Shown here in pieces: positions 12,386 through 26,339 of a stretch of DNA of 64,000 nt. Both the position numbers and the translations under genes were made by a program. The notes beneath the pieces are model-generated. The model ran no database searches. It was not told the origin of the DNA and saw nothing but the letters and a program-made list of their open reading frames with translations. The stretch is taken from NCBI RefSeq assembly GCF_026723765.1, contig NZ_CP113524.1, forward strand, positions 1,659,001 to 1,723,000. Direction: 5' to 3'. The first letter of the stretch is position 1. Each line of letters begins with the position of its first letter. This DNA comes from Lacrimispora xylanolytica (GTDB lineage: Bacteria > Bacillota > Clostridia > Lachnospirales > Lachnospiraceae).

Positions 12386-12671
12386 AACTTTTTAGGGAAG
12401 CATGGAAGAAAGGTATGAACAATATAAAAAAACCAACTTAATTAATAAAAAAGTAAACATACATGCATGGTATTATTTGTTATAATAAAGAAAATGTGTA
12501 AAGTTTACAGTGAAATAGGGAAGGCGTATGGCTAAGATGGGGATAGAAAGGAGGGCAGAAGCACATATCCCTGAAGATATATGATCCGTAACGAAATATA
12601 GAGAGGAGGGAGACCAGTTTCAATTATTTTAAGATAGCATTTGATAATGTTAGAAAAAATGGAGGGTGTTT
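12386..12671 (+). promoter_or_regulatory. long leader before the arabinofuranosidase gene
   Basis: An extended -10 (TG-T-TATAAT, 12478-12486) suggests transcription from about 12493, leaving a leader of roughly 180 bases. It holds a GGGATA/TATCCC hairpin candidate and a possible 18-codon peptide from ATG 12528 behind GGGAAGGCG. I recognise no known riboswitch motif. An attenuator or leader peptide is possible but unproven. Confidence 0.4.
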
Positions 12672-14045
12672 ATGAGTAAATTATGGAAGCTTTTAGGCTT
12701 AATGCTTGTTTTGCTAACGTGTTTTCCTTTTGTAAGCTATGGGGATAATCCCATAATTACTGATGTCTTTACCGCAGATCCGGCAACGCTTGTGTATGAT
12801 GGAACCTGCTATGTATACGTTGGGCACGACGAGAATGATGCGCCCAATACGGGATATAAAATGGTGGACTGGAAAGTCTATTCCTCTACCGATATGGTAA
12901 ATTGGACGGACAGGGGAACCGCTCTTACCGCCAAGACCTTCAGCTGGTCAGGCGGAGATGCCAATGCAGCCCAGTGTATCTATCGGAACGGAAAGTTTTA
13001 CTGGTATGTCAGCACCCATGACAAAACCAATCCGGGAGTGGCTATCGGTGTTGCGGTATCCGATAGCCCCACAGGTCCTTTTAAGGATGCCTTAGGGCGT
13101 GCTCTCATTACCAATGATATGACCAAATATGCGTCTCACTCATGGGATGATCTGGACCCTACCGTATTTATTGACGATGATGGACAGGCATATTTATACT
13201 GGGGAAACAAAGCCTGCTATTGGGTTAAGCTGAATGATGATATGATTAGCTTAAAGGGGGCAATTACAGCCATTCCAATCACAAAAGAAGCCTTTGGACC
13301 AGGGTTTGAGGAGGCTCCCTGGCTGTATAAAAGGAATGGATTATACTATCTTTTATATGCCTCCGGATTTCCTGAGAGCATCGCATATTCTACCAGCAGC
13401 AGCCCTGCAGGTCCTTGGACTTACCGTGGGATTATTATGAAACCGACTCCTACAAGCACCACCATTCACCCGGCAATTGTAGATTATAAGGGAGCTTCTT
13501 ACTTTTTATACCACAATGGATCATTGCCCGGAGGCGGGAGCTATAAGCGTTCCGTCTGTATACAGAAGTTTCAATATAATTCAGATGGGACCATACCCTT
13601 ACTTACAGATACAACCACAGGCCTTAACGGGACCATGAGCCGTATGAAGTCCTATAATTTCCAGAATATGTACTGGAGGAATTCAGACTTTAACGTGAAA
13701 ATAGAAGCAAACGTAACTCCGGCAACGGATCAATTCTGGCAGGTGGTACCTGGACTGGCAGATTCTACAGATGGCAATGTATCCTTCCGCTCGGTTTACT
13801 ATCCTGGGTATTACTTAAGACAAAATAACAATGAACTGAAGCTGGAGAAACAGGACGGCAGTACAAAATTTTCAAAAGATGCCACCTTTAAGAAGGTTCC
13901 TGGTCTAAAAGATTCAAGCTGGTCATCCTTCCAGTCCTTTGCTGCACCTGATTTATATATCAGACATAGTAATTATACCTTGAGGATGAGTACTATAAGT
14001 ACGGATCTGGACCGACAGGATGCCACCTTTCTAATCGGTAAGTAA
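12672..14045 (+). CDS. secreted GH43 arabinofuranosidase with C-terminal AbfB (CBM42) domain
   Basis: A 457-residue exo-enzyme that would release arabinose side chains from arabinan or arabinoxylan. A Sec signal peptide spans residues 1 to about 25 (hydrophobic LLGLMLVLLTCFPF, small residues before DNP). The five-bladed GH43 propeller shows the general base in FTADPA (Asp36), the DPTVFIDDDG block, and the acid Glu in FEEAPW. Residues about 320-457 form an arabinose-binding AbfB domain with the repeated pattern SFRSVYYPGYYLR and SFQSFAAPDLYIR. ATG 12672 fits GGAGGG at 12661-12666 better than the GTG at 12666, which overlaps it. It is a single-gene unit with its own terminator. Confidence 0.9.
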   Translation: MSKLWKLLGLMLVLLTCFPFVSYGDNPIITDVFTADPATLVYDGTCYVYVGHDENDAPNTGYKMVDWKVYSSTDMVNWTDRGTALTAKTFSWSGGDANAAQCIYRNGKFYWYVSTHDKTNPGVAIGVAVSDSPTGPFKDALGRALITNDMTKYASHSWDDLDPTVFIDDDGQAYLYWGNKACYWVKLNDDMISLKGAITAIPITKEAFGPGFEEAPWLYKRNGLYYLLYASGFPESIAYSTSSSPAGPWTYRGIIMKPTPTSTTIHPAIVDYKGASYFLYHNGSLPGGGSYKRSVCIQKFQYNSDGTIPLLTDTTTGLNGTMSRMKSYNFQNMYWRNSDFNVKIEANVTPATDQFWQVVPGLADSTDGNVSFRSVYYPGYYLRQNNNELKLEKQDGSTKFSKDATFKKVPGLKDSSWSSFQSFAAPDLYIRHSNYTLRMSTISTDLDRQDATFLIGK

Positions 14046-14923: not shown

Positions 14924-15889
14924 TTACTCTTGTTTGGTCAGCTTTTTATATGCCACCAGGTCCTGGTTCCAGGAATCATAGGTTTTGTCCTTACGGTGAT
15001 CGGTCAGAATTCCTTGCTTCGATAAATAAGAACCGATATAGCCTGATATTTTAACACTGCCGAAGTAATTTGGATGATCTCCCTCATCTCTGGTATCCTT
15101 ATTCCAGTCCATAGGAACTTCAGAAGTCATAAGATTAAGATCAAGGAAGGTAAGCTGGTTCTTTTCTGCAAGGGAAACTGCGGTATTGTGCTTGCCTGGA
15201 GTCCAGTTCTTAGGGGTAGGTACAGAGTAAAGAACCAGTTGAATGTTCTGTTCCCTGCAAAGCTCAATAATTTTATTAATATACTCCATAGGCTGGTCAC
15301 CAATGGGATAAACGGAATCACTTTCCCTTATATAGGGTCCGCCTTTGTAGGGATTTATTACTGGTACATATTTAAAGCCCTTATAGGTGTTGACCGGTCC
15401 GTCAGCCGCCTTATTTTTTAAATTTCTCAACATATTTAAGTGGAAATATTTCCAGTTGCTGTGGAATTTGTAAACTGGGAACATATTCTTCATGTTCTCG
15501 TCCACCATATTATCCAGCGCACTTAGATATTCAAAATCCCTGTAAAATGCGTTTGTTTCCAGAAAAACAATTTTAGGGGTTTGCTTTTTTAAGACCTTCT
15601 CAAATAAGTAATAAGTATCCTGGAGCCGCTGTCCTGGTACTCCACAGTTATAACCTGTATAGCCGTAATCCTTCCAGATTTCCATGGGGGATATACTGGA
15701 TACGGCTTCGCTGTCACCGATAACGATATAATCAATGGTATTTTCAGCCTCACTTGTAATGCTGTTTGTTTTTTTATATAAACCGCTGTCCATGGTGTTG
15801 TTTGGAAGGATCAGATACGATAATCCATACAGCAAAATAAAAAGTCCGGATAGAAAAAGAACTATTTTGACCTTGTTATTGATTTTCAT
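14924..15889 (-). CDS. SGNH-fold/DltD-like protein, last gene of the Dlt-like operon
   Basis: A 321-residue protein with one N-terminal membrane anchor (residues about 9-28) and an outward-facing SGNH-hydrolase-like domain: IGDSEAV (Ser60), NCGVPGQ, and the C-terminal EGDHPN (Asp271, His272). The Dlt machine uses DltD, and alginate acetylation uses AlgJ/AlgX, both similarly anchored partners of an MBOAT protein. GAGGTGATGA precedes ATG 15889; an upstream frame extension lies inside the MBOAT gene and is rejected. It probably passes the acyl or aminoacyl group to the final polymer, or edits it. It starts 11 bases after the MBOAT stop. Confidence 0.8.
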   Translation of the reverse strand: MKINNKVKIVLFLSGLFILLYGLSYLILPNNTMDSGLYKKTNSITSEAENTIDYIVIGDSEAVSSISPMEIWKDYGYTGYNCGVPGQRLQDTYYLFEKVLKKQTPKIVFLETNAFYRDFEYLSALDNMVDENMKNMFPVYKFHSNWKYFHLNMLRNLKNKAADGPVNTYKGFKYVPVINPYKGGPYIRESDSVYPIGDQPMEYINKIIELCREQNIQLVLYSVPTPKNWTPGKHNTAVSLAEKNQLTFLDLNLMTSEVPMDWNKDTRDEGDHPNYFGSVKISGYIGSYLSKQGILTDHRKDKTYDSWNQDLVAYKKLTKQE

Positions 15890-15900
15890 TTCATCACCTC

Positions 15901-17484
15901 TTAAAATCCGGCATAAATTAATTTCACCGGTAAATATCCCTCGCCGTAAGCACCAAAAATAAGCACCACAAAAATTGCGGCATAAAGAAAGGCAAAACGG
16001 GCGGGCATGCGCCATGCAGAAACTTTATCACGAATGGAAATTCCCCGCTCATGAATCACTCCCACAATAAGAACCGTAAGGAGGCCAAAGAATGCGGCAT
16101 AGAAATCCTGAATGGATACCCCTAGCTTAAGGAGAGAACCGTCAGTCAGTACCGACCAGTGAAAACCGGTAAAAATGGAAGCGAACATCTGAAACCCTAA
16201 GGTCAAGTTTCTTGCAGCAAAAAACAGCTCGCCGACGAATACAATGATGAGAAGCTTTATAGTCTGAAACACACGGTAGAGAATACCTTCCCTGTTCATG
16301 TGAAGGGCATTTGTCACTGTCACGACCCATGGTTCCATAAGATTTTCCAAAAGTATGATCACTAAATAATACATTCCAAAAAAGATGTAATGCCAACCAG
16401 TTCCATGCCAGAATCCATTGGCCAGCCAGACTCCCAGCAGTGGAAGTGCGGAAGATAATATCTGACCTAAGTGCTTTCCAAATCGTTCCCGGGATTTTTT
16501 TCCCAGCTTTTTTCCGAATTTTGTCAAAGAGATGGGATAGAACACGTAATCCTTTAACCAGGTGCCAAGGGTAATGTGCCACCTCCTCCAAAATTCAGAC
16601 GCATTTTTTGCAAAAAAAGGCTGGCGGAAGTTTTCCGGTATAATAACACCAAAGATTTCTCCGGTACCAATGGTCATATCAATACAGCCTGAAAAGTCAG
16701 CATAGAGCTGGAACGTATATAAAACGGCACCAATAATAATCGTAATACCGCTGTAATTGCCAGGTGTATTAAAGATATTGTCCACAAGAGGATTTAATCG
16801 ATCTGCGATGATAAGCTTTTTAAACAATCCCCAAAGAACTCTTTGAAGACCATAGGTGAGGTTTTTATAATCCAGAGGCTTTCCGCTATAGAGAGAATCT
16901 GCTGTCTGATTGTAACGGCAGATGGGTCCTTCCATTAAAGAAGGGAAGAAGGCAAGATAAAGGGCAAGCCGCTCTAAATTATCATCAGGCTTGATTTTTT
17001 CGTAATAAACATCAACCAGATAAGATACTGCCTGCAAGGTGTAAAATGAGATTCCAATGGGTACTACAAAATGCAAGGCAGGCACTACTTCTTTAAAAGA
17101 AAAGATATGAAGTATGCCATTGATGTTCTTCACAAAGAAATTAGAGTATTTCAGCACAAGTAAAATGCCAAGCTGAAAACCAATGGAAAGCCATAGAATG
17201 CGGCGGCGTTTCCTTGCATAGACTGCTTTCAATGCCTTTTTGTCCTGGGAAGCCAAAAGCTCCCGTTCCCCCTCTGCTTTGCAATAGCCAAGCCACAAAC
17301 CACCATGATGGATGAGCAAGGTAGACAGCAGCAGGTATATCAGGAGCTTTCCACTGATGGAATAAAAGAAGATATAGCTGGCCAGTAAAAGGACCTTTGA
17401 ACGGTGGCGCTGGGGGCAGAAATAGTATGCCGCCAGCACCAGTGGGAAAAATGCAAAAAGGTAAAGGGGGGAAGTATACGTCAT
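15901..17484 (-). CDS. MBOAT-family membrane acyltransferase (DltB/AlgI-like)
   Basis: A 527-residue polytopic protein. It has the MBOAT core block ENFRQPFFAKNASEFWRRWHITLGTWLKDYVFYP and the catalytic histidine in NGFWHGTGWHYI (about residue 358). In DltB this protein takes the aminoacyl group from the carrier protein and moves it across the membrane. It begins three bases after the carrier-protein stop, with the ribosome site inside the carrier gene, so the two should be made together. Overall length is above DltB (about 400) and nearer AlgI/PatA-type proteins, so the acceptor may not be a teichoic acid. Confidence 0.88.
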   Translation of the reverse strand: MTYTSPLYLFAFFPLVLAAYYFCPQRHRSKVLLLASYIFFYSISGKLLIYLLLSTLLIHHGGLWLGYCKAEGERELLASQDKKALKAVYARKRRRILWLSIGFQLGILLVLKYSNFFVKNINGILHIFSFKEVVPALHFVVPIGISFYTLQAVSYLVDVYYEKIKPDDNLERLALYLAFFPSLMEGPICRYNQTADSLYSGKPLDYKNLTYGLQRVLWGLFKKLIIADRLNPLVDNIFNTPGNYSGITIIIGAVLYTFQLYADFSGCIDMTIGTGEIFGVIIPENFRQPFFAKNASEFWRRWHITLGTWLKDYVFYPISLTKFGKKLGKKSRERFGKHLGQILSSALPLLGVWLANGFWHGTGWHYIFFGMYYLVIILLENLMEPWVVTVTNALHMNREGILYRVFQTIKLLIIVFVGELFFAARNLTLGFQMFASIFTGFHWSVLTDGSLLKLGVSIQDFYAAFFGLLTVLIVGVIHERGISIRDKVSAWRMPARFAFLYAAIFVVLIFGAYGEGYLPVKLIYAGF

Positions 17485-17487
17485 CTT

Positions 17488-17715
17488 TTATTCCTCTTTC
17501 AGACGGGTGATCATACTCCAGATTGCATCTGCGGAATTAAAGTTTGCAGGGACCATTTCACCAGGGGTAATTTCAACGTCAAAGGCCTCTTCTAATTCAG
17601 GAATGAGAGAGAGGATGGAAAAAGAATCTAACAGTCCTCCGTCAATGAGTTTTGTCTCTGTTTCATAATCAATGCCTGGGTTAATTCCATTTAAAATTTC
17701 AAATAACTGTTCCAT
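17488..17715 (-). CDS. DltC-like acyl/aminoacyl carrier protein
   Basis: A 75-residue four-helix carrier protein. The phosphopantetheine attachment serine is Ser31 in GGLLDSFSIL, the same context as DltC (LDSFG). AAAGGAG sits before ATG 17715. It lies between the PLP enzyme and the MBOAT gene, and would carry the residue activated by the adenylation enzyme as a thioester. It needs a phosphopantetheinyl transferase, which is not in this window. Confidence 0.88.
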   Translation of the reverse strand: MEQLFEILNGINPGIDYETETKLIDGGLLDSFSILSLIPELEEAFDVEITPGEMVPANFNSADAIWSMITRLKEE

Positions 17716-17727
17716 AAGTTTTCTCCT

Positions 17728-18912
17728 TTATGATTGAATATAATTGAATAAATTGGTTGGTGTAGAGGGTCTGGCTTCTATATACTGATCCTTCTCAGAA
17801 TAGAGAAGAACGGTGGGTAAATCCCGGCTTAAGAATAATGACATTCCTTCTGTGACAGAATAAGCTCCAGTCTTTTCAAATGACAGATAATCTCCAGTCT
17901 TTAAGCCTGTAAGAGGATACTGCTTGACAAGCATGTCATTTACCGTGCAAAGAGAGCCGCAGATGGTCCACTCACCTTTTTCTCCATCCTTTTCTCCCAG
18001 ATGCTTTATGAACGGCTTTTTCATGGCGAGCATCTGTCCGTAATAATTCACCTGATGACAGCCGCCGTCGACGATGCAGTAGGATTGGCCCTTGTTTGTT
18101 TTCATATCCACTACCTTTGTCACATAAGAACCGCAGCAGGCGGCCATAAAGCGGCCCATTTCCAGGGTGACAACTCCTCCAAAGGTCATTTCCTCAATGG
18201 CCTTTGACAGCTGATGGAGCATTTCATCCTCCTGATTTTCTTCCTCTTCAAAGTAGCAGACGGGGAGTCCTGGGCCATATTCGATTTTCTTAACAATAAA
18301 GCCGTATTTTTCTTTCCAGGCATCACAAAGACCATCAAGTCTTTTAAGCTCTTTAAAAAGTTTAGAAGAAGATTTCTTTTGAGTACCAGAAAAATACTGA
18401 ATTCCTTCCATGGTGATCCACTCATAAGGACCTTTCCGGATCAGTTCCTCCAAAAGCTCCTCATCCATTCCAAACTGGTTTCCGCTGGTAAGCCTTAACA
18501 GTACATTCACATGGGTCTTGTACTTTTCTGCACAGGCTGTAATCATCTGCCAGTGGGAAAGAGACTCTACGGTATAGGTAATGCGTTCACCGAAGGTTTT
18601 TACGGCATGGTCTACGTCTGATATGTTCTTATGGACACCAGACATGACGATTTTTTCGCCGGGGACATTGGCTCTTTCGCAAATAGAAAATTCTCCGGGA
18701 GAGCAGACCTCAAAGAAATCCACCTGATCCACCAGGCTTTTTATGAGAAATGGATTGGCCTTCATGGCATAGCACAGCTCCACCTGATGGCCAAGGATTC
18801 CTCTTATTTTTTCAATCTGTCCGGCCAGGGTATCCAAATCAAACAAATAGAGAGGCGTTTGATAAGTGCGGACAGCGTTAGTTAAGGTTGTGTGATTGAT
18901 TGAATTTTTCAT
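17728..18912 (-). CDS. fold-III PLP decarboxylase-family enzyme inside the Dlt-like operon
   Basis: A 394-residue protein of the ornithine/diaminopimelate decarboxylase family. The PLP lysine is Lys51 (CYAMKANP), the phosphate-binding EMGR motif is at 251-254, the active-site cysteine of the partner subunit is Cys322 (CGSLCTVNDML), and GAY is at 349-351. Where ODC and DAPDC have HVGS/HIGS stacking on the cofactor, this protein has FSGT (about 174-177), so the usual His seems replaced. ATG 18912 overlaps the adenylation-enzyme stop as ATGA, with GGAG eight bases before. Canonical dlt operons have no such gene. It may make the residue that is loaded on the carrier, or modify it there; the substrate is unknown. 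Confidence 0.85.
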   Translation of the reverse strand: MKNSINHTTLTNAVRTYQTPLYLFDLDTLAGQIEKIRGILGHQVELCYAMKANPFLIKSLVDQVDFFEVCSPGEFSICERANVPGEKIVMSGVHKNISDVDHAVKTFGERITYTVESLSHWQMITACAEKYKTHVNVLLRLTSGNQFGMDEELLEELIRKGPYEWITMEGIQYFSGTQKKSSSKLFKELKRLDGLCDAWKEKYGFIVKKIEYGPGLPVCYFEEEENQEDEMLHQLSKAIEEMTFGGVVTLEMGRFMAACCGSYVTKVVDMKTNKGQSYCIVDGGCHQVNYYGQMLAMKKPFIKHLGEKDGEKGEWTICGSLCTVNDMLVKQYPLTGLKTGDYLSFEKTGAYSVTEGMSLFLSRDLPTVLLYSEKDQYIEARPSTPTNLFNYIQS

Positions 18913-20414
18913 ATACACATCTCCAGTAATTTTTTTCTGTCAATTTTCCCATTAGGGGTAATGGGGAATTCGGTGAGAGAGTGAAAGCCAGTGGGTATCA
19001 TATAGGAAGGAAGCGTGCTTCGCATCTTTTCAGAAAGTTCCTTTCCGTCCATGGTGCCTACATAAAAGGCTGTAATTCTGTTTCGTTTCTCATCGAATAC
19101 ACAGCAGGCCCGTTCCATGGAGGGGTAGCTGTTCATAGCCATTTCGATTTCTTCCAGCTCAATGCGGTGTCCCATATGCTTGATCTGAAAGTCTTTCCGT
19201 CCGGCAAAGCAAAGGTCCTTGTTTTCGTTATAAAAGGCCAGGTCTCCGGTTCGGTATATCAGCTCCAGATAATGATTGTTCAAAGGATTCTGGACAAAGG
19301 CACGCTTTGTCTGTTCCGGGTTATTATAGTAACCAAGGGCAAGGGCAGTACCAGCCACACAAAGCTCTCCGTTTATTCCCGGACCTGTCACCTGCTTATC
19401 CTCCTCATCAAGGAGAAATACCTTTTCATTGGGAAATGGTTTTCCAATGGGTATTTTTTCATCGGTCTGAAACTCCCGGTCTATCTCATAATACGTGCAG
19501 TTACAGGTGATTTCCGTGGGGCCGTAGAGGTTTACATACCTGGCATCAGGAAGATACTTCTTCCAGGTGTTCAGCTGCTTGACCGGCATGGCCTCTCCGC
19601 TGAATAACACCTTGTTAATCTGATCAGGTACCTTGTAGGTGAATCCCTTCAGCTGGGATACGAGGCAAAGTGCAGATACTGCCCAGATTAAGGTAGTCAC
19701 CTTCTGCTCGCACAAATAATCCAGTAGCAGAGTGGGAATGGAAAACATTCTTTTTGGTATGATCACCATGGCAGCGCCCGTTTTTAACGTGGAATAAATG
19801 TCTTTTACGGATACATCAAAGTCAAAGGGTGCCTGATTTCCGATGATGTCCTCCTCTGTAATGTGGAAGAGATCAGGGAAATATTCCATGAAATCTATGA
19901 CGGACCGATGGCTGACCAGGACGCCTTTTGGAATGCCGGTAGAGCCAGAGGTGAAGTTACAGTACAATGGATCCACATCAAGGGAATGATTACGAATTTC
20001 TCTTAAAGCCGTTTCCCTGATTTCGTGTTTCACCATCTCATGATAATCAAAGCATTTCCCCACATAACCGGCTTCCTTAAGAACGTTTCTATCCTCACCC
20101 AGGGTGATGACAGAGCCTGCATTGGAGGTTTCTAATATCTGACGGATTCGAACGGGCGGCTGGTCCATGTTGATGGAGATATAAAAGCAGCCTGCAGCCA
20201 CAATTCCCATAAATGCGGTCAGTGCCTCCACACTTTTATCCATGAAAACGGCCACTGGACGCCTGGGAGCTTCCTGCTCCGATAAAAAGCTTCCGATGCG
20301 CCTGGCATTGTGTAACAGCTCTTCATAAGTAATACTTTTTTCTGGATCCAGGACTGCTGTTTTGTCAGGGTACAACTTAGCGGATTGTTCCAGGTATTCT
20401 AATACATTTTTCAT
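18909..20414 (-). CDS. DltA-like amino-acid adenylation enzyme
   Basis: A 501-residue ANL ligase that activates a carboxylic acid with ATP and loads a carrier protein. Core motifs: A3 TSGSTGIPKG (155-164), A4 FDFDVS with the amino-group-binding Asp200, A5 NLYGPTE (295-301), A7 YRTGD, A8 around KHMGHRIELEEIE, and the A10 lysine Lys490 (PNGKIDR). It is closest in feel to DltA (D-alanine carrier ligase), but the DltA FCGE pocket motif reads FSGE here (Ser272). In Bacillus DltA that Cys helps select D-alanine. The stop overlaps the PLP-enzyme start. It follows the sensor-kinase gene by three bases, so all seven genes form one operon. Confidence 0.88.
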   Translation of the reverse strand: MKNVLEYLEQSAKLYPDKTAVLDPEKSITYEELLHNARRIGSFLSEQEAPRRPVAVFMDKSVEALTAFMGIVAAGCFYISINMDQPPVRIRQILETSNAGSVITLGEDRNVLKEAGYVGKCFDYHEMVKHEIRETALREIRNHSLDVDPLYCNFTSGSTGIPKGVLVSHRSVIDFMEYFPDLFHITEEDIIGNQAPFDFDVSVKDIYSTLKTGAAMVIIPKRMFSIPTLLLDYLCEQKVTTLIWAVSALCLVSQLKGFTYKVPDQINKVLFSGEAMPVKQLNTWKKYLPDARYVNLYGPTEITCNCTYYEIDREFQTDEKIPIGKPFPNEKVFLLDEEDKQVTGPGINGELCVAGTALALGYYNNPEQTKRAFVQNPLNNHYLELIYRTGDLAFYNENKDLCFAGRKDFQIKHMGHRIELEEIEMAMNSYPSMERACCVFDEKRNRITAFYVGTMDGKELSEKMRSTLPSYMIPTGFHSLTEFPITPNGKIDRKKLLEMCI

Positions 20415-20417
20415 ACG

Positions 20418-21749
20418 TTACGCTTCCTTTCCTTGGGCTGACACTGGAAAGCTGGCCCTGGCTTCAAACCGAGTCCGGTTTTTTCTTATCTTAAAGGTCC
20501 CTTTCATCTGCTCTGTTATTTTGCGGCAGGTCTTAAGACCGATTCCAGTACTTTCCGCCAGAGAATCATCCTGTCGGATATCATTGCTGATGCTGATGAT
20601 TATGTGTTGTCCATTGCATTCGGCATTCACAAGAACTGGCCCACTGGTGCTTGCATATTTTCTTACATTGGAAAACAGGTTATCAAAGAGACGCTTAAAG
20701 TATTGAATATCACCTGTCATCATACAGGACTGCTCCAAAAGCCCGGTCCTCACATCAAACCCCTGATTGCTTAAATCAAATACATGCTCGCTGATCAGCT
20801 GTTCTAAAAGGATGCGCGCATCAAAGGTCTCTTTCTTCATTAGTATGGTCTCCTTGCCAAATACAAGGAAGTATTGAAACAGCTTATCGGACAGCTCCTT
20901 AAGCTGCAGGGATTTTTCTTTGCAGCTTTTGATATATTTAGAAAGCTGTTCTTCTGAATGATATCCCTCCGTTTCCAGAATCTCCAGATAGCCGATGAGA
21001 GCCGTGAGAGGAGTTCTGATGTCATGGGACATGGAAGTAATCAGCTCGCTGTTAGCTTCCCATGCCTCCTTTTCGCTTTTGTAACGTGTAATAATGGAAT
21101 TTCTCATATTGTCAGCATTTATGGCAAGTAGAGCTATCTCATCATTCCCTTTATGGTAAATGGGCTGTTCTAGATTTCCCTGTTCAATCAGGGAAACTTC
21201 TTTTGACAGGAGCATGATCCGGGCAATGATTTTGTGATTATAAAAGATCACAATGCCGAACAAAAACAAAAAGAAAACTCCAAGGGATATATAAAAAACA
21301 ATGCTGTACCATTTGATTTCCGAGGAATCGATAATGGATACAGAATAGACCCCGTCGGTAAATGCAATGTTTCTAGTCAGCTGCTGGCTTTCTTCCAGGA
21401 AGGTTCCTGTGGACTCGTAATTGTAATAAGCATCGTTCCAGAAGCCGGATTCATATAAAATCTCATCGCCGCTGTAAATGGTCAAATACGTGTATTTATG
21501 GCTTTTGACCCATTTGGACAAAGCCCTTACATCTTTCACCGAAAGTTTATTTTTCCTGATATAAGCTTCCATGGAATTTTGATAGTTTTCCAGCCGTTTT
21601 GTGGAAGCATCTGCATTCAAATGATTCTTGGAAATCAGGTAATCTCCCAGAGACTGAGTCGCAAGATACATGAGAAAGCTGATCAAAAGACCTAAGGCCA
21701 ATATATAGACCTGTTTGTAACGGAGGGAAGATCTTATACTAAACTTCAT
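20418..21749 (-). CDS. two-component sensor histidine kinase
   Basis: A 443-residue membrane kinase: TM1 about 13-31, an extracellular sensor region about 32-147, TM2 about 148-170, HAMP-like linker, H-box SMSHDIRTPLT (His242), and C-terminal HATPase blocks (NLFSNVRKYA, STGIGLKTC). The frame opens earlier, but ATG 21749 is preferred; the start overlaps the response-regulator 3' end by 11 bases. It is followed after three bases by the adenylation enzyme. The layout resembles kinases sensing cell-envelope stress (VanS- or PhoR-like) and suggests the envelope-modification operon is autoregulated. Confidence 0.9.
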   Translation of the reverse strand: MKFSIRSSLRYKQVYILALGLLISFLMYLATQSLGDYLISKNHLNADASTKRLENYQNSMEAYIRKNKLSVKDVRALSKWVKSHKYTYLTIYSGDEILYESGFWNDAYYNYESTGTFLEESQQLTRNIAFTDGVYSVSIIDSSEIKWYSIVFYISLGVFFLFLFGIVIFYNHKIIARIMLLSKEVSLIEQGNLEQPIYHKGNDEIALLAINADNMRNSIITRYKSEKEAWEANSELITSMSHDIRTPLTALIGYLEILETEGYHSEEQLSKYIKSCKEKSLQLKELSDKLFQYFLVFGKETILMKKETFDARILLEQLISEHVFDLSNQGFDVRTGLLEQSCMMTGDIQYFKRLFDNLFSNVRKYASTSGPVLVNAECNGQHIIISISNDIRQDDSLAESTGIGLKTCRKITEQMKGTFKIRKNRTRFEARASFPVSAQGKEA

Positions 21750-22452
21750 CAATCTGATAGCCCTTTCCCCAAACGGTGCGTATGATCGTTGGATTATTGG
21801 AATCAAGTTCCAGCTTCTTTCGCAGCTTCAAAATGTGAACCATTATGGTATTGGTAGAGGAGGGAAGAAACTTATCATTCCAAACGCCCTCGTAGATGGC
21901 TCTGGCATCCTTTGCACTGCCCCTGTTTTTTACAAGATACATGAGAACCTGAAACTCTGTATCCGTTAGGTCGATTTTTTGGTTCTCCCGGTACACCTGA
22001 CGGCTTTGGGTATTAATAAGCACATCCTGAATCCGGATTTCTGAATTACTGATGTTTGGCTGGGATTTTCCTTTGTATATCACGTATCTTCTTAAGAGTG
22101 AATGAACCTTCATAAGAAGCTCCGACTGGGAAAATGGTTTTACCAGATAATCGTCCCCGCCAGTTTCATAAGCTTCTGTCTTATCACTTTCCTTTGATTT
22201 GGCGGTGAGAAAGAGTATGGGTGCGGAAGAGGTTTTTCTGATTTCCTTGCATACATCGATTCCGGACAGACCGGGCATCATGATATCAAGAATAATTAAA
22301 TCAATGTCCTGATTTTTTGAAACGGTTTGAAGTGCTTCCTTACCGTTAGAGGCATCCCAGACAGAATAGCCTTTATTCTCCAAATGGATGCGGAGTACTT
22401 CCCGAATATCGGCATCGTCATCCACAATTAAAATCTGCTGTGCAGTCTCCAT
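21739..22452 (-). CDS. OmpR/PhoB-family response regulator
   Basis: A 237-residue regulator: receiver domain with acidic pocket VDDDAD, phospho-acceptor Asp56 (ILDIMMPG), the conserved Lys in KPFSQSEL, and a C-terminal winged helix (LTDTEFQVLMYL ... TIIRTVWGKGYQID). GGGAGG precedes ATG 22452. It heads the seven-gene operon that ends with the DltD-like gene, so it probably controls this operon. A pair of TTCTTAA direct repeats ten bases apart just upstream of its promoter fits the tandem sites used by this family. Confidence 0.93.
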   Translation of the reverse strand: METAQQILIVDDDADIREVLRIHLENKGYSVWDASNGKEALQTVSKNQDIDLIILDIMMPGLSGIDVCKEIRKTSSAPILFLTAKSKESDKTEAYETGGDDYLVKPFSQSELLMKVHSLLRRYVIYKGKSQPNISNSEIRIQDVLINTQSRQVYRENQKIDLTDTEFQVLMYLVKNRGSAKDARAIYEGVWNDKFLPSSTNTIMVHILKLRKKLELDSNNPTIIRTVWGKGYQIDEV

Positions 22453-24704: not shown

Positions 24705-26339
24705 ATGATGAAAAAATGGGAAACAATCACGGGAACGTCTATTTCTGCAAAGGCAGAGGGTATTTCACTGACAGAGAGCGGAGGCTGGTTTGAAAGCGCA
24801 TATCTGAAATGGAAGCCTGTAGACAAAGCGGTATCTTACCAGGTTTTAGTAAAATCTGCTGGAGCAGGCGACCCGGCCTACGTGCAAATCGATGATACAC
24901 TGATTCGTAAGTATCCCTCGTATTTCAGGGCGGATGCATTGGGGCTTTCTGCTGGTCAATACACTTTTAAGCTGGAAGTGAATTTTGCCAATGGTTCCAG
25001 CAAAACCATAGTCTCTGAACCAATCGCTGTAAAAGCAAACAGCAGGACCGGATTTGCTTTTTCTGGGGAATCTCCCTCCCAGACAGGGTCCGGCGCTTAT
25101 GAGGAAAATGGAGCTTTAAAAAATGGGGCGCAGATTGTATATATCACGGCTGCAACGGCAAAAACCGTAACTCTTGATGTCATAATAAATAATTCTGGGA
25201 AAAAACAGACCGCAACTGGAATTGGGGAGATTATGACCCTGCGTCAAAAGGGCTATGATAAGACCCCTCTTATCATTCGTTTTATTGGTCAAATTACAGG
25301 AGAGGATATGTCCGGCCAGCTAAACAGCAGTGGATACCTTCAGGTAAAAGGCAAATCAGCCTATACAGAGATGAACATGACCTTAGAAGGCGTAGGAGAT
25401 GATGCAACGGCATATGGCTGGGGCATTCTCGTTAGAAACTGTAAGAATCTGGAGATCAGAAATTTAGGCATTATGCTGTTTCCTGATGATGGAATCTCCC
25501 TTGATACGAGTAACTGCAATGTATGGATTCATCACAATGATATCTTCTACGGAGCAGCAGGTTCTGATGCGGACCAGGCAAAGGGGGATGGTTCTATTGA
25601 TGTTAAAAATGCATCCACCTATGTCACCGTATCCTATAATCATTTCTGGGATTCCGGGAAGTGTTCTCTTTGCGGCATGAAGGACTCTGAAGAATTTTTC
25701 GTCACCTATCACCATAACTGGTATGATCATTCCGATTCCCGCCACCCAAGAATCCGGCAGGCATCGGTTCATATCTATAATAATTATTATGATGGTATCG
25801 CAAAATATGGAGTTGGTGTGACAAATGGAAGCTCTGCATTCGTAGAGGAAAACTATTTCAGGCATTGCAAATATCCAATGATGAGCTCTCTACAGGGCAC
25901 AGATACCCTGGGGAAAGGAACCTTTTCCGGTGAGAACGGAGGAATAATAAAAGCTTATCATAACAGGATAGAACAGGCAGACAGCCTTATTTATGCCAAT
26001 ACCAACCATGGAACAACAAGTGGAAATGAAACCTCCTTTGATGCTTATGAAGCTTCCAAACGAGGTGAAATCGTTCCAGCCACCTATAAGACCATGGCAG
26101 GAAATACTTCCTATAATAATTTTGATACCTTAAAAGATCTGGGTGCTAATCAGGCAGACATTGACGATGTAACAGCAGTAGAAGGTATCGTAACTAAGGA
26201 AGCCGGCCGTATGAATCAAGGTGATTTTACCTGGAAGTTTAATAACGAAACCGATGATACTTCTTATGGTTTAAACAGTGAGCTCATGTCTAAAATAAGG
26301 AATTATAAGACCCAGCTTATATCTGTGGGAGTGAAATAA
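24705..26339 (+). CDS. family PL1 pectate lyase without visible signal peptide
   Basis: A 544-residue right-handed beta-helix enzyme that cleaves polygalacturonate by beta-elimination. An N-terminal fibronectin-like domain (about 5-115) precedes the PL1 domain. Conserved blocks: SLDTSNCNVWIHHNDIF, GDGSIDVKN (calcium-binding acids), VSYNHFWDSGK, and the catalytic-arginine region SDSRHPRIRQ. The protein begins MMKKWETITGT and has no hydrophobic stretch, so Sec export is not apparent, unlike the nearby GH43 enzyme. GAAAGG precedes ATG 24705. It could act on imported oligogalacturonides or use a non-classical route. It forms a single-gene unit. Confidence 0.92.
   Translation: MMKKWETITGTSISAKAEGISLTESGGWFESAYLKWKPVDKAVSYQVLVKSAGAGDPAYVQIDDTLIRKYPSYFRADALGLSAGQYTFKLEVNFANGSSKTIVSEPIAVKANSRTGFAFSGESPSQTGSGAYEENGALKNGAQIVYITAATAKTVTLDVIINNSGKKQTATGIGEIMTLRQKGYDKTPLIIRFIGQITGEDMSGQLNSSGYLQVKGKSAYTEMNMTLEGVGDDATAYGWGILVRNCKNLEIRNLGIMLFPDDGISLDTSNCNVWIHHNDIFYGAAGSDADQAKGDGSIDVKNASTYVTVSYNHFWDSGKCSLCGMKDSEEFFVTYHHNWYDHSDSRHPRIRQASVHIYNNYYDGIAKYGVGVTNGSSAFVEENYFRHCKYPMMSSLQGTDTLGKGTFSGENGGIIKAYHNRIEQADSLIYANTNHGTTSGNETSFDAYEASKRGEIVPATYKTMAGNTSYNNFDTLKDLGANQADIDDVTAVEGIVTKEAGRMNQGDFTWKFNNETDDTSYGLNSELMSKIRNYKTQLISVGVK

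Follow-up and report, generated by a model that had tools for sequence, protein, structure and literature searches.

A conserved Dlt-like operon of Lachnospiraceae that may decarboxylate its amino acid cargo on the carrier protein

The genome of Lacrimispora xylanolytica (Lachnospiraceae) carries a seven-gene operon that resembles the Dlt system of envelope acylation and includes a gene for a fold-III pyridoxal 5'-phosphate (PLP) decarboxylase. It lies in a stretch of 64,000 nucleotides (contig NZ_CP113524.1, positions 1,659,001 to 1,723,000; hereafter the window) within a 4.5 Mb single-contig genome. The seven genes encode a response regulator, a sensor kinase, a stand-alone amino-acid adenylation (A) enzyme, the PLP enzyme, a DltC-like carrier protein, a membrane-bound O-acyltransferase (MBOAT) and a DltD-like, probable SGNH protein. 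The operon is real and conserved, and it is probably a decarboxylating variant of Dlt-like, MBOAT–SGNH envelope acylation. That it acylates the envelope with a cargo edited on the carrier by decarboxylation is a reading to which we give about even weight. The sequence basis of this reading is the gene set, the conserved catalytic residues, a distinctive adenylation pocket and the association of that pocket with the PLP gene.

From these features we infer an amino acid, an order of steps and a kind of acceptor polymer. The A enzyme would activate an amino acid with a second carboxylate, most likely aspartate or glutamate via the side-chain carboxyl, and load it on the carrier. The PLP enzyme would then strip the free alpha-carboxylate on the carrier and leave beta-alanyl or 4-aminobutyryl as an omega-amino acyl thioester. 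The MBOAT would take the acyl group onto its own C-terminal Tyr, in the sequence LIYAGF, and the SGNH protein would transfer the group to a hydroxyl on a surface polymer. As cargo we would favour beta-aspartate, giving beta-alanyl, followed by gamma-glutamate, giving 4-aminobutyrate (GABA).

The adenylation pocket and its partner genes

Among proteins of solved structure, the closest relative of the PLP enzyme is BtrK of butirosin biosynthesis, both in a single-sequence search (E 1e-29) and when a profile of 22 family members is used (1.5e-60). Lys53, Cys324, Thr325 and Asp328 are present in all 71 aligned family members. BtrK converts Glu-S-BtrI to GABA-S-BtrI (PMC7857480). VinN loads 3-methylaspartate, not 3-aminoisobutyrate (3AIB), on VinL, and VinO decarboxylates it afterwards; FlvN recognizes aspartate (PMC11284099). 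By analogy with BtrK and VinO, decarboxylation in the L. xylanolytica operon would most likely take place on the carrier.

The A enzyme passes the cut-off of the amino-acid adenylation domain model TIGR01733. Its pocket code, ten residues read by alignment at positions mapped from GrsA landmarks and from an alignment with LgrA, is DVKILSLCNK. Six of the ten positions are common with DVWHLSLIDK, which we take to be the Ser code; the Glu code is presumably DAKDLGVVDK, a literal string that did not occur among the literature matches listed. Lys239 is present in 60 of 63 A proteins (the exceptions are two Arg and one Met, the Met in a DltA-like neighbour) and would suit a substrate that still bears a second carboxylate. 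The VinN-type mark, a bulky residue at 236 together with Ser301, is also present (V236, S301). This rule, with F231 and S299 as the VinN counterparts, is given in PMC11253843; DltA is bulky there too.

The association between pocket and PLP gene was examined in the reverse direction, starting from the A enzyme. A search of 200 genomes of the family gave matches in 85 (E up to 1e-90, own genome included) at 100 places, of which 99 were classified, the window's own being excluded; a neighbour is a gene on the same strand within 3.5 kb, and part of the loci have flanks of only 1.5 kb, with their MBOAT mostly out of view. The code DVK..S.CNK occurs in 43 of these genes, with a PLP gene adjacent to 33, a formyltransferase-like gene to 4 and neither to 6. 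By contrast, only 3 of the 56 genes with other codes have an adjacent PLP gene (Fisher p 4e-14, uncorrected for kinship). Three of the formyltransferase-like genes sit between A and carrier, in the place of the PLP gene (L144 4559-5458 (-), L154 3925-4809 (-) and L181; L numbers denote loci), and the fourth follows the carrier (L143 5-943 (-)). They are assigned by Formyl_trans_N in L143 and L144 and by similarity in L154 and L181. Formylation by the F domain of LgrA takes place on the carrier.

Phylogeny adds detail to this association. In a quick tree, a weakly supported branch (64) sets apart the 45 DVK rows, among which are the window and L164, and PLP changes seven times. In a more careful tree the DVK rows need two changes, and a set of 48 rows (the 45 plus three IAR rows) has support of 98/98. 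Within it, a 35-row subclade that holds the window (support 93/97) has the PLP gene in 33 of 35 rows, window included. Of the other ten DVK rows, nine carry the strict code and L164 has G in place of C. One of these ten has PLP, four have a formyltransferase and five have neither; the quick tree unites them as a clade (92), the careful tree does not. Six alignment columns (60, 175, 189, 257, 260 and 453) separate the ten from the 35, and none is a code position. Since the pocket is the same with a PLP gene, a formyltransferase gene or neither, we infer that one and the same amino acid is loaded by the A enzyme in these three settings and that editing follows on the carrier.

The PLP enzyme might instead act before loading, with the free amino acid decarboxylated and the A enzyme activating the product, such as beta-alanine or GABA. 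Many fold-III decarboxylases use free amino acids (PMC7857480), and the operons with the same code and without a PLP gene, 10 of 43, could obtain the same compound from another source. This order is nevertheless unlikely in our view: Lys239 would suit a substrate with its second carboxylate still present, BtrK (the nearest solved relative) and VinO work after loading, and the formyltransferase genes beside 4 of the 43 same-code genes, in three cases between A and carrier, are what editing of a loaded aminoacyl group would lead one to expect.

Several observations weigh against decarboxylation on the carrier as we propose it. Lys239 is not specific, as it is also found in DAK codes, which are mostly without PLP, and it belongs to the definition of the 43-gene code class. 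The one-residue shortening of the beta13-14 loop that is typical of VinN is not seen, with no gap relative to LgrA in this stretch; the segment has 30 residues in 91 of 100 aligned relatives, window included, in a comparison made without the VinN sequence. Activation of a side-chain carboxyl therefore lacks that mark. The ten same-code operons without PLP count here as well, and the match between tree and PLP gene is imperfect: L142 and L178 lack it inside the 35-row clade, and L174 has it outside. In the careful tree, three IARx.SQASK rows fall within the DVK group, and two of these have PLP, so a PLP enzyme of the same family can accompany a different pocket. Locus L047 begins at the PLP gene and has no carrier in the following 6 kb. 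Moreover, we know of no member of the group with known activity.

Conservation of the gene set

The PLP protein is 96 and 99% identical in the named relatives [Clostridium] aerotolerans and Clostridium sp. 12(A). It was found in 26 of 61 genomes drawn by kinship (E up to 1e-20), among them 22 of the 24 of the genus, own included, one with a split frame. Further out, it was found in 40 of 200 genomes of the family, each from another genus (E up to 1e-30), and in 5 of 398 genomes of the phylum, own included (E up to 1e-80).

The preliminary description of this DNA called for a check on whether the PLP gene is conserved together with the rest of the operon. It is, and the order A-PLP-carrier-MBOAT-SGNH recurs. 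Among 52 named loci, collected by similarity to the PLP protein, matches to A, PLP and carrier occur together in 48 and all five genes in 33. Recurrence of the set across many genera indicates that it is not due to chance. In L076 the A match is a DltA-like gene that stands apart, at a distance of about 3 kb. The four loci outside the 48 begin or end at the PLP gene: L047, described above, and L051, L067 and L081, which break off where the missing gene would be. The neighbourhoods of 12 loci are mixed as far as listed: some genes near L055 look by eye like polysaccharide export genes, and polymer genes are not a constant feature among the neighbours listed.

Four loci with long flanks (L053, L065, L078 and L079) have the A-PLP-carrier trio without the adjacent MBOAT–SGNH pair. 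Under the reading that we favour, they show the three genes keeping together where no MBOAT is adjacent. They would also fit a trio whose output is a small molecule, such as a secreted beta-amino acid product, with the MBOAT and SGNH genes as mere neighbours. We think this improbable: the complete five-gene set is frequent, several other loci are truncated at contig ends, and the close packing of the genes in the window argues for one pathway.

Some loci have split frames: L080 (Lacrimispora xylanisolvens CP070896.1) in the A, PLP and MBOAT genes, L061 in A and PLP, L040 in A and L060 in the DltD-like gene. These may reflect assembly error or decay.

Relatives of the decarboxylase

In the profile search, BtrK stood ahead of 6knh (7.5e-52), titled 'probable DAP decarboxylase' and presumably SbnH, and of 2p3e (5.6e-48), the best entry plainly named a diaminopimelate (DAP) decarboxylase. 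This kinship raises the possibility that the A enzyme activates one end of meso-DAP, with the far carboxylate bound by Lys239, and that the PLP enzyme trims the other alpha-amino-acid centre to leave a lysyl carrier. However, the C-terminal Cys motif of 2p3e, GPICETGD, has Glu where the PLP family, BtrK and 6knh have Thr, and both this Glu (CET) and the Arg of the 2p3e motif NDLIRP are absent from the PLP family. Both residues have a role with the substrate in DAP decarboxylase. The pocket would also appear small for meso-DAP, and free lysine would offer a simpler route. On balance, a meso-DAP route has a very small probability.

A stray lysine-biosynthesis LysA, placed here by chance, can be dismissed. 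The lysA model gives the PLP protein 152 bits against a cut-off of 298, Thr replaces Glu as described above, and a LysA-like gene lies elsewhere in the genome (24% identity to the PLP protein; 277 bits, just below the same cut-off).

One related frame deserves mention. In L162 (6716-10084 (-)) a single open frame of 1123 residues carries, fused to a PLP decarboxylase, a long linker, what looks by eye like a membrane segment, surface Ig-like domains and a transglutaminase core.

Carrier, MBOAT and SGNH protein

The phosphopantetheine Ser31 of the carrier is present in all 69 aligned sequences and His360 of the MBOAT in all 55. The protein of the last gene has no Pfam match at E 0.001 and only a weak GDSL match at E 0.14; of its 24 aligned homologues, 13 match GDSL with E values no higher than 1 (best 9.8e-06). 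In the alignment of 24, G58, D268 and H272 are invariant and S60 is present in at least 90%. The last gene of the operon thus probably encodes an SGNH protein. The DltD model matched neither the window protein nor appeared among the 21 families listed for the 24 homologues.

The preliminary description took the absence of dltX as a distinguishing mark of the operon, and this we reject as a sign of novelty, because the MBOAT itself ends in an acyl-shuttle motif, which explains the missing gene. No separate dltX is present among the operon's open reading frames (ORFs) of at least 70 residues, shorter ones not having been searched for. The last residues of the MBOAT, LIYAGF, form an FXYXXF-type motif with L for the first F and the Tyr kept. 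Across 89 complete homologues from the loci collected with the PLP protein and with the A enzyme (six more were cut or short and were excluded), 57 end in a strict FxYxxF and 30 in a looser version of it; the remaining 2 have no final aromatic residue, and the Tyr is present in all 89. For PatA and DltX the motif Tyr has been shown or proposed to bear the acyl group, and other non-Dlt MBOATs also carry a C-terminal acyl-shuttle motif (PMC12148441).

We also weighed ordinary D-alanylation, in which the A enzyme would load D-alanine and the PLP protein would be a racemase or unrelated. The layout is Dlt-like, and the best family matches include the models for DltA, DltC and DltB. All three, however, score below their curated cut-offs: 303 bits against 560 for DltA (TIGR01734), 33.7 against 68 for DltC (NF003464) and 148 against 375 for DltB (TIGR04091). 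In addition, the D-alanine pocket of Bacillus cereus DltA, L198 and C269 according to PMC11253843, is absent: the A enzyme has V and S at these positions, and K at 239. The code also differs from DLMVLCTVAK, the DltA-like code of L076. Given also a decarboxylase Cys in 71 of 71 family members and an association of the PLP gene with the pocket code, D-alanylation proper is rejected on cut-offs and pocket and has the least probability of the alternatives.

Indeed, no gene of the genome exceeds the curated cut-off for DltA or DltB (TIGR01734, TIGR04091), so the operon may stand in for dlt in this host. A second MBOAT (G000:C1:2851368-2852255, L003) scores 150 bits with the DltB model, below cut-off. 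Possible makers of an acceptor are also present in the genome, namely an LtaS-like gene of the sulfatase family and a TagB/TagF-like gene, but nothing ties either to the operon.

Operon layout and regulation

The ORF check confirmed all seven genes on the minus strand (Table 1). The packing and family assignments first described for them hold by coordinates and by Pfam and NCBIfam, with two starts corrected. In order from the response regulator to the DltD-like gene, the raw ORFs are separated by -68, 3, -10, 12, 3 and -115 nt. The two large overlaps are an artefact of over-long ORF starts. For the kinase, the most likely start leaves an overlap of 11 nt with the response regulator; the corrected start of the DltD-like gene stands behind GAGGTGATGA, a good ribosome site, 11 nt past the MBOAT stop. 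From coordinates alone, the PLP gene probably starts at ATG 18912-18910 and overlaps the A stop (18911-18909) by 4 nt, which agrees with the ATGA coupling initially proposed. Promoter (22 versus 20.4) and terminator (10 versus 9.0) scans were both at chance level.

Table 1. Genes of the operon, with window coordinates
Feature	Coordinates	Strand	Basis and remarks
OmpR-type response regulator (VanR/PhoB-like)	21739..22452	-	Pfam Response_reg and Trans_reg_C; best NCBIfam match is the VanR model, below cut-off
Sensor histidine kinase	20418..21749	-	HisKA and HATPase_c; listed ORF 20418-21806 from TTG 21806, start corrected to ATG 21749
Stand-alone amino-acid adenylation enzyme (A)	18909..20414	-	TIGR01733 over cut-off; pocket code DVKILSLCNK
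Fold-III PLP decarboxylase, BtrK-like	17728..18912	-	Pfam Orn/DAP/Arg decarboxylase; listed ORF 17728-18918 from GTG 18918
DltC-like carrier protein	17488..17715	-	Phosphopantetheine Ser in LDSF; DltC model below cut-off; top PDB match is a D-alanyl carrier protein
MBOAT acyltransferase	15901..17484	-	PF03062; C-terminal acyl-shuttle motif LIYAGF
DltD-like, probable SGNH protein, N-terminal hydrophobic segment (by eye)	14924..15889	-	Listed ORF 14924-16015; start corrected to ATG 15889

The operon may be controlled by the kinase encoded next to it, and the preliminary description had credited it with its own two-component system. For the loci as a whole that claim is not supported. Nine of the 52 named loci have matches to both the response regulator and the kinase on the strand of the operon and no more than about 2.2 kb from it, upstream in L031, L032, L034 and L080 and downstream in L045, L046, L072, L073 and L075; in L040 the pair is divergent beside the operon, and in L035 a kinase lies at the contig edge. 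With the pair beside the operon in only 10 of 52 loci, several of which are cut by contig ends and in which unlike regulators would escape notice, regulation by the adjacent pair looks like a local feature.

Plant polysaccharide genes lie near the operon in the window: a GH43 arabinosidase-like protein with an AbfB domain (12666-14045 (+), Pfam) and a pectate-lyase-like protein (24705-26339 (+), by eye only).

Discussion

We propose, tentatively and with somewhat less than even confidence, that the operon belongs to a wider Lachnospiraceae platform in which interchangeable A enzymes, diverse in pocket code, supply a DltC-like carrier with differing acyl groups, the cargo is edited on that carrier (by PLP enzymes, formyltransferases and perhaps acetyltransferases), and an MBOAT–SGNH pair with a fused shuttle exports it; in L. 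xylanolytica the product would be a beta-alanyl or 4-aminobutyryl ester. Other codes do occur in the family, most with carrier, MBOAT and SGNH genes, among them DAKCAGLGMK (15 genes), an SM.YLALDIK-type group and DVHFFAMH. No description of the gene set, or of beta-alanyl or aminobutyryl wall esters, was found among the open-access literature matches listed.

Further variants were seen along the way. Dlt-like A genes at L185, L188-L191, L198, L201-L203 and L205 have Ser for Asp235 (codes SM[LTS]Y[LM]ALDIK), which suggests that they load acids without an alpha-amino group. At L078, L079, L166 and L179 the A code is IARGCSQASK and the order A-carrier-PLP; position 235 is not Asp, so these operons likely have a different cargo. 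In two Oscillospiraceae loci from metagenome-assembled genomes, both with A code DAKSCVLGIK, the gene that separates PLP from carrier (L063 4796-5392, L065 11202-11798) looks by eye like one for a hexapeptide-repeat acyltransferase. L155 has a GNAT-like gene, read from its sequence and from one weak match to an acetyltransferase model.

To our knowledge, carrier-protein-based editing of envelope charge is known almost only for D-alanine, and for glycine in AlmE. If our proposal is correct, the known chemistry of Gram-positive surfaces would be broadened by a system, conserved across many gut genera, for loading a different amino acid and editing it on the carrier, and this could help to explain how commensals tune their surface charge against host peptides. 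With a separate A enzyme, carrier and PLP enzyme, the system is open to clean tests in vitro.

Several known systems share parts of this design. The exosortase A-associated ligase and decarboxylase (TIGR03098 and TIGR03099, both 'hypoth_equivalog' models) form an analogous A and PLP pair, and TIGR03099 is the best NCBIfam model for our PLP protein; the scores here are far below cut-off, at 189 against 592 bits and 181 against 478. In butirosin biosynthesis the ligase, BtrJ, is of another family than the A enzyme. The likeness there lies in BtrI and BtrK, a carrier-bound amino acid and its fold-III PLP decarboxylase, but the product there becomes part of an antibiotic and does not decorate a polymer of the cell surface. 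VinN, VinL and VinO, and the FlvN-type macrolactam starters, come close in having a stand-alone A enzyme, a stand-alone carrier and a PLP decarboxylase that acts after loading (PMC11284099); their pathway ends on a polyketide synthase, and the loop shortening of VinN is not seen in the operon's A enzyme. PatA and PatB, and other MBOAT–SGNH systems, share the C-terminal FXYXXF-type shuttle and probably the SGNH partner (PMC12148441), but PatA/PatB draws on acyl-CoA where the operon would draw on a carrier protein. Dlt itself (DltA, B, C, D and X) shares the A enzyme, carrier, MBOAT and acyl-Tyr shuttle motif, and probably the SGNH protein. The operon differs from Dlt in its pocket code, in the PLP gene between A and carrier, in the shuttle fused to the MBOAT and in having no protein over the Dlt cut-offs.

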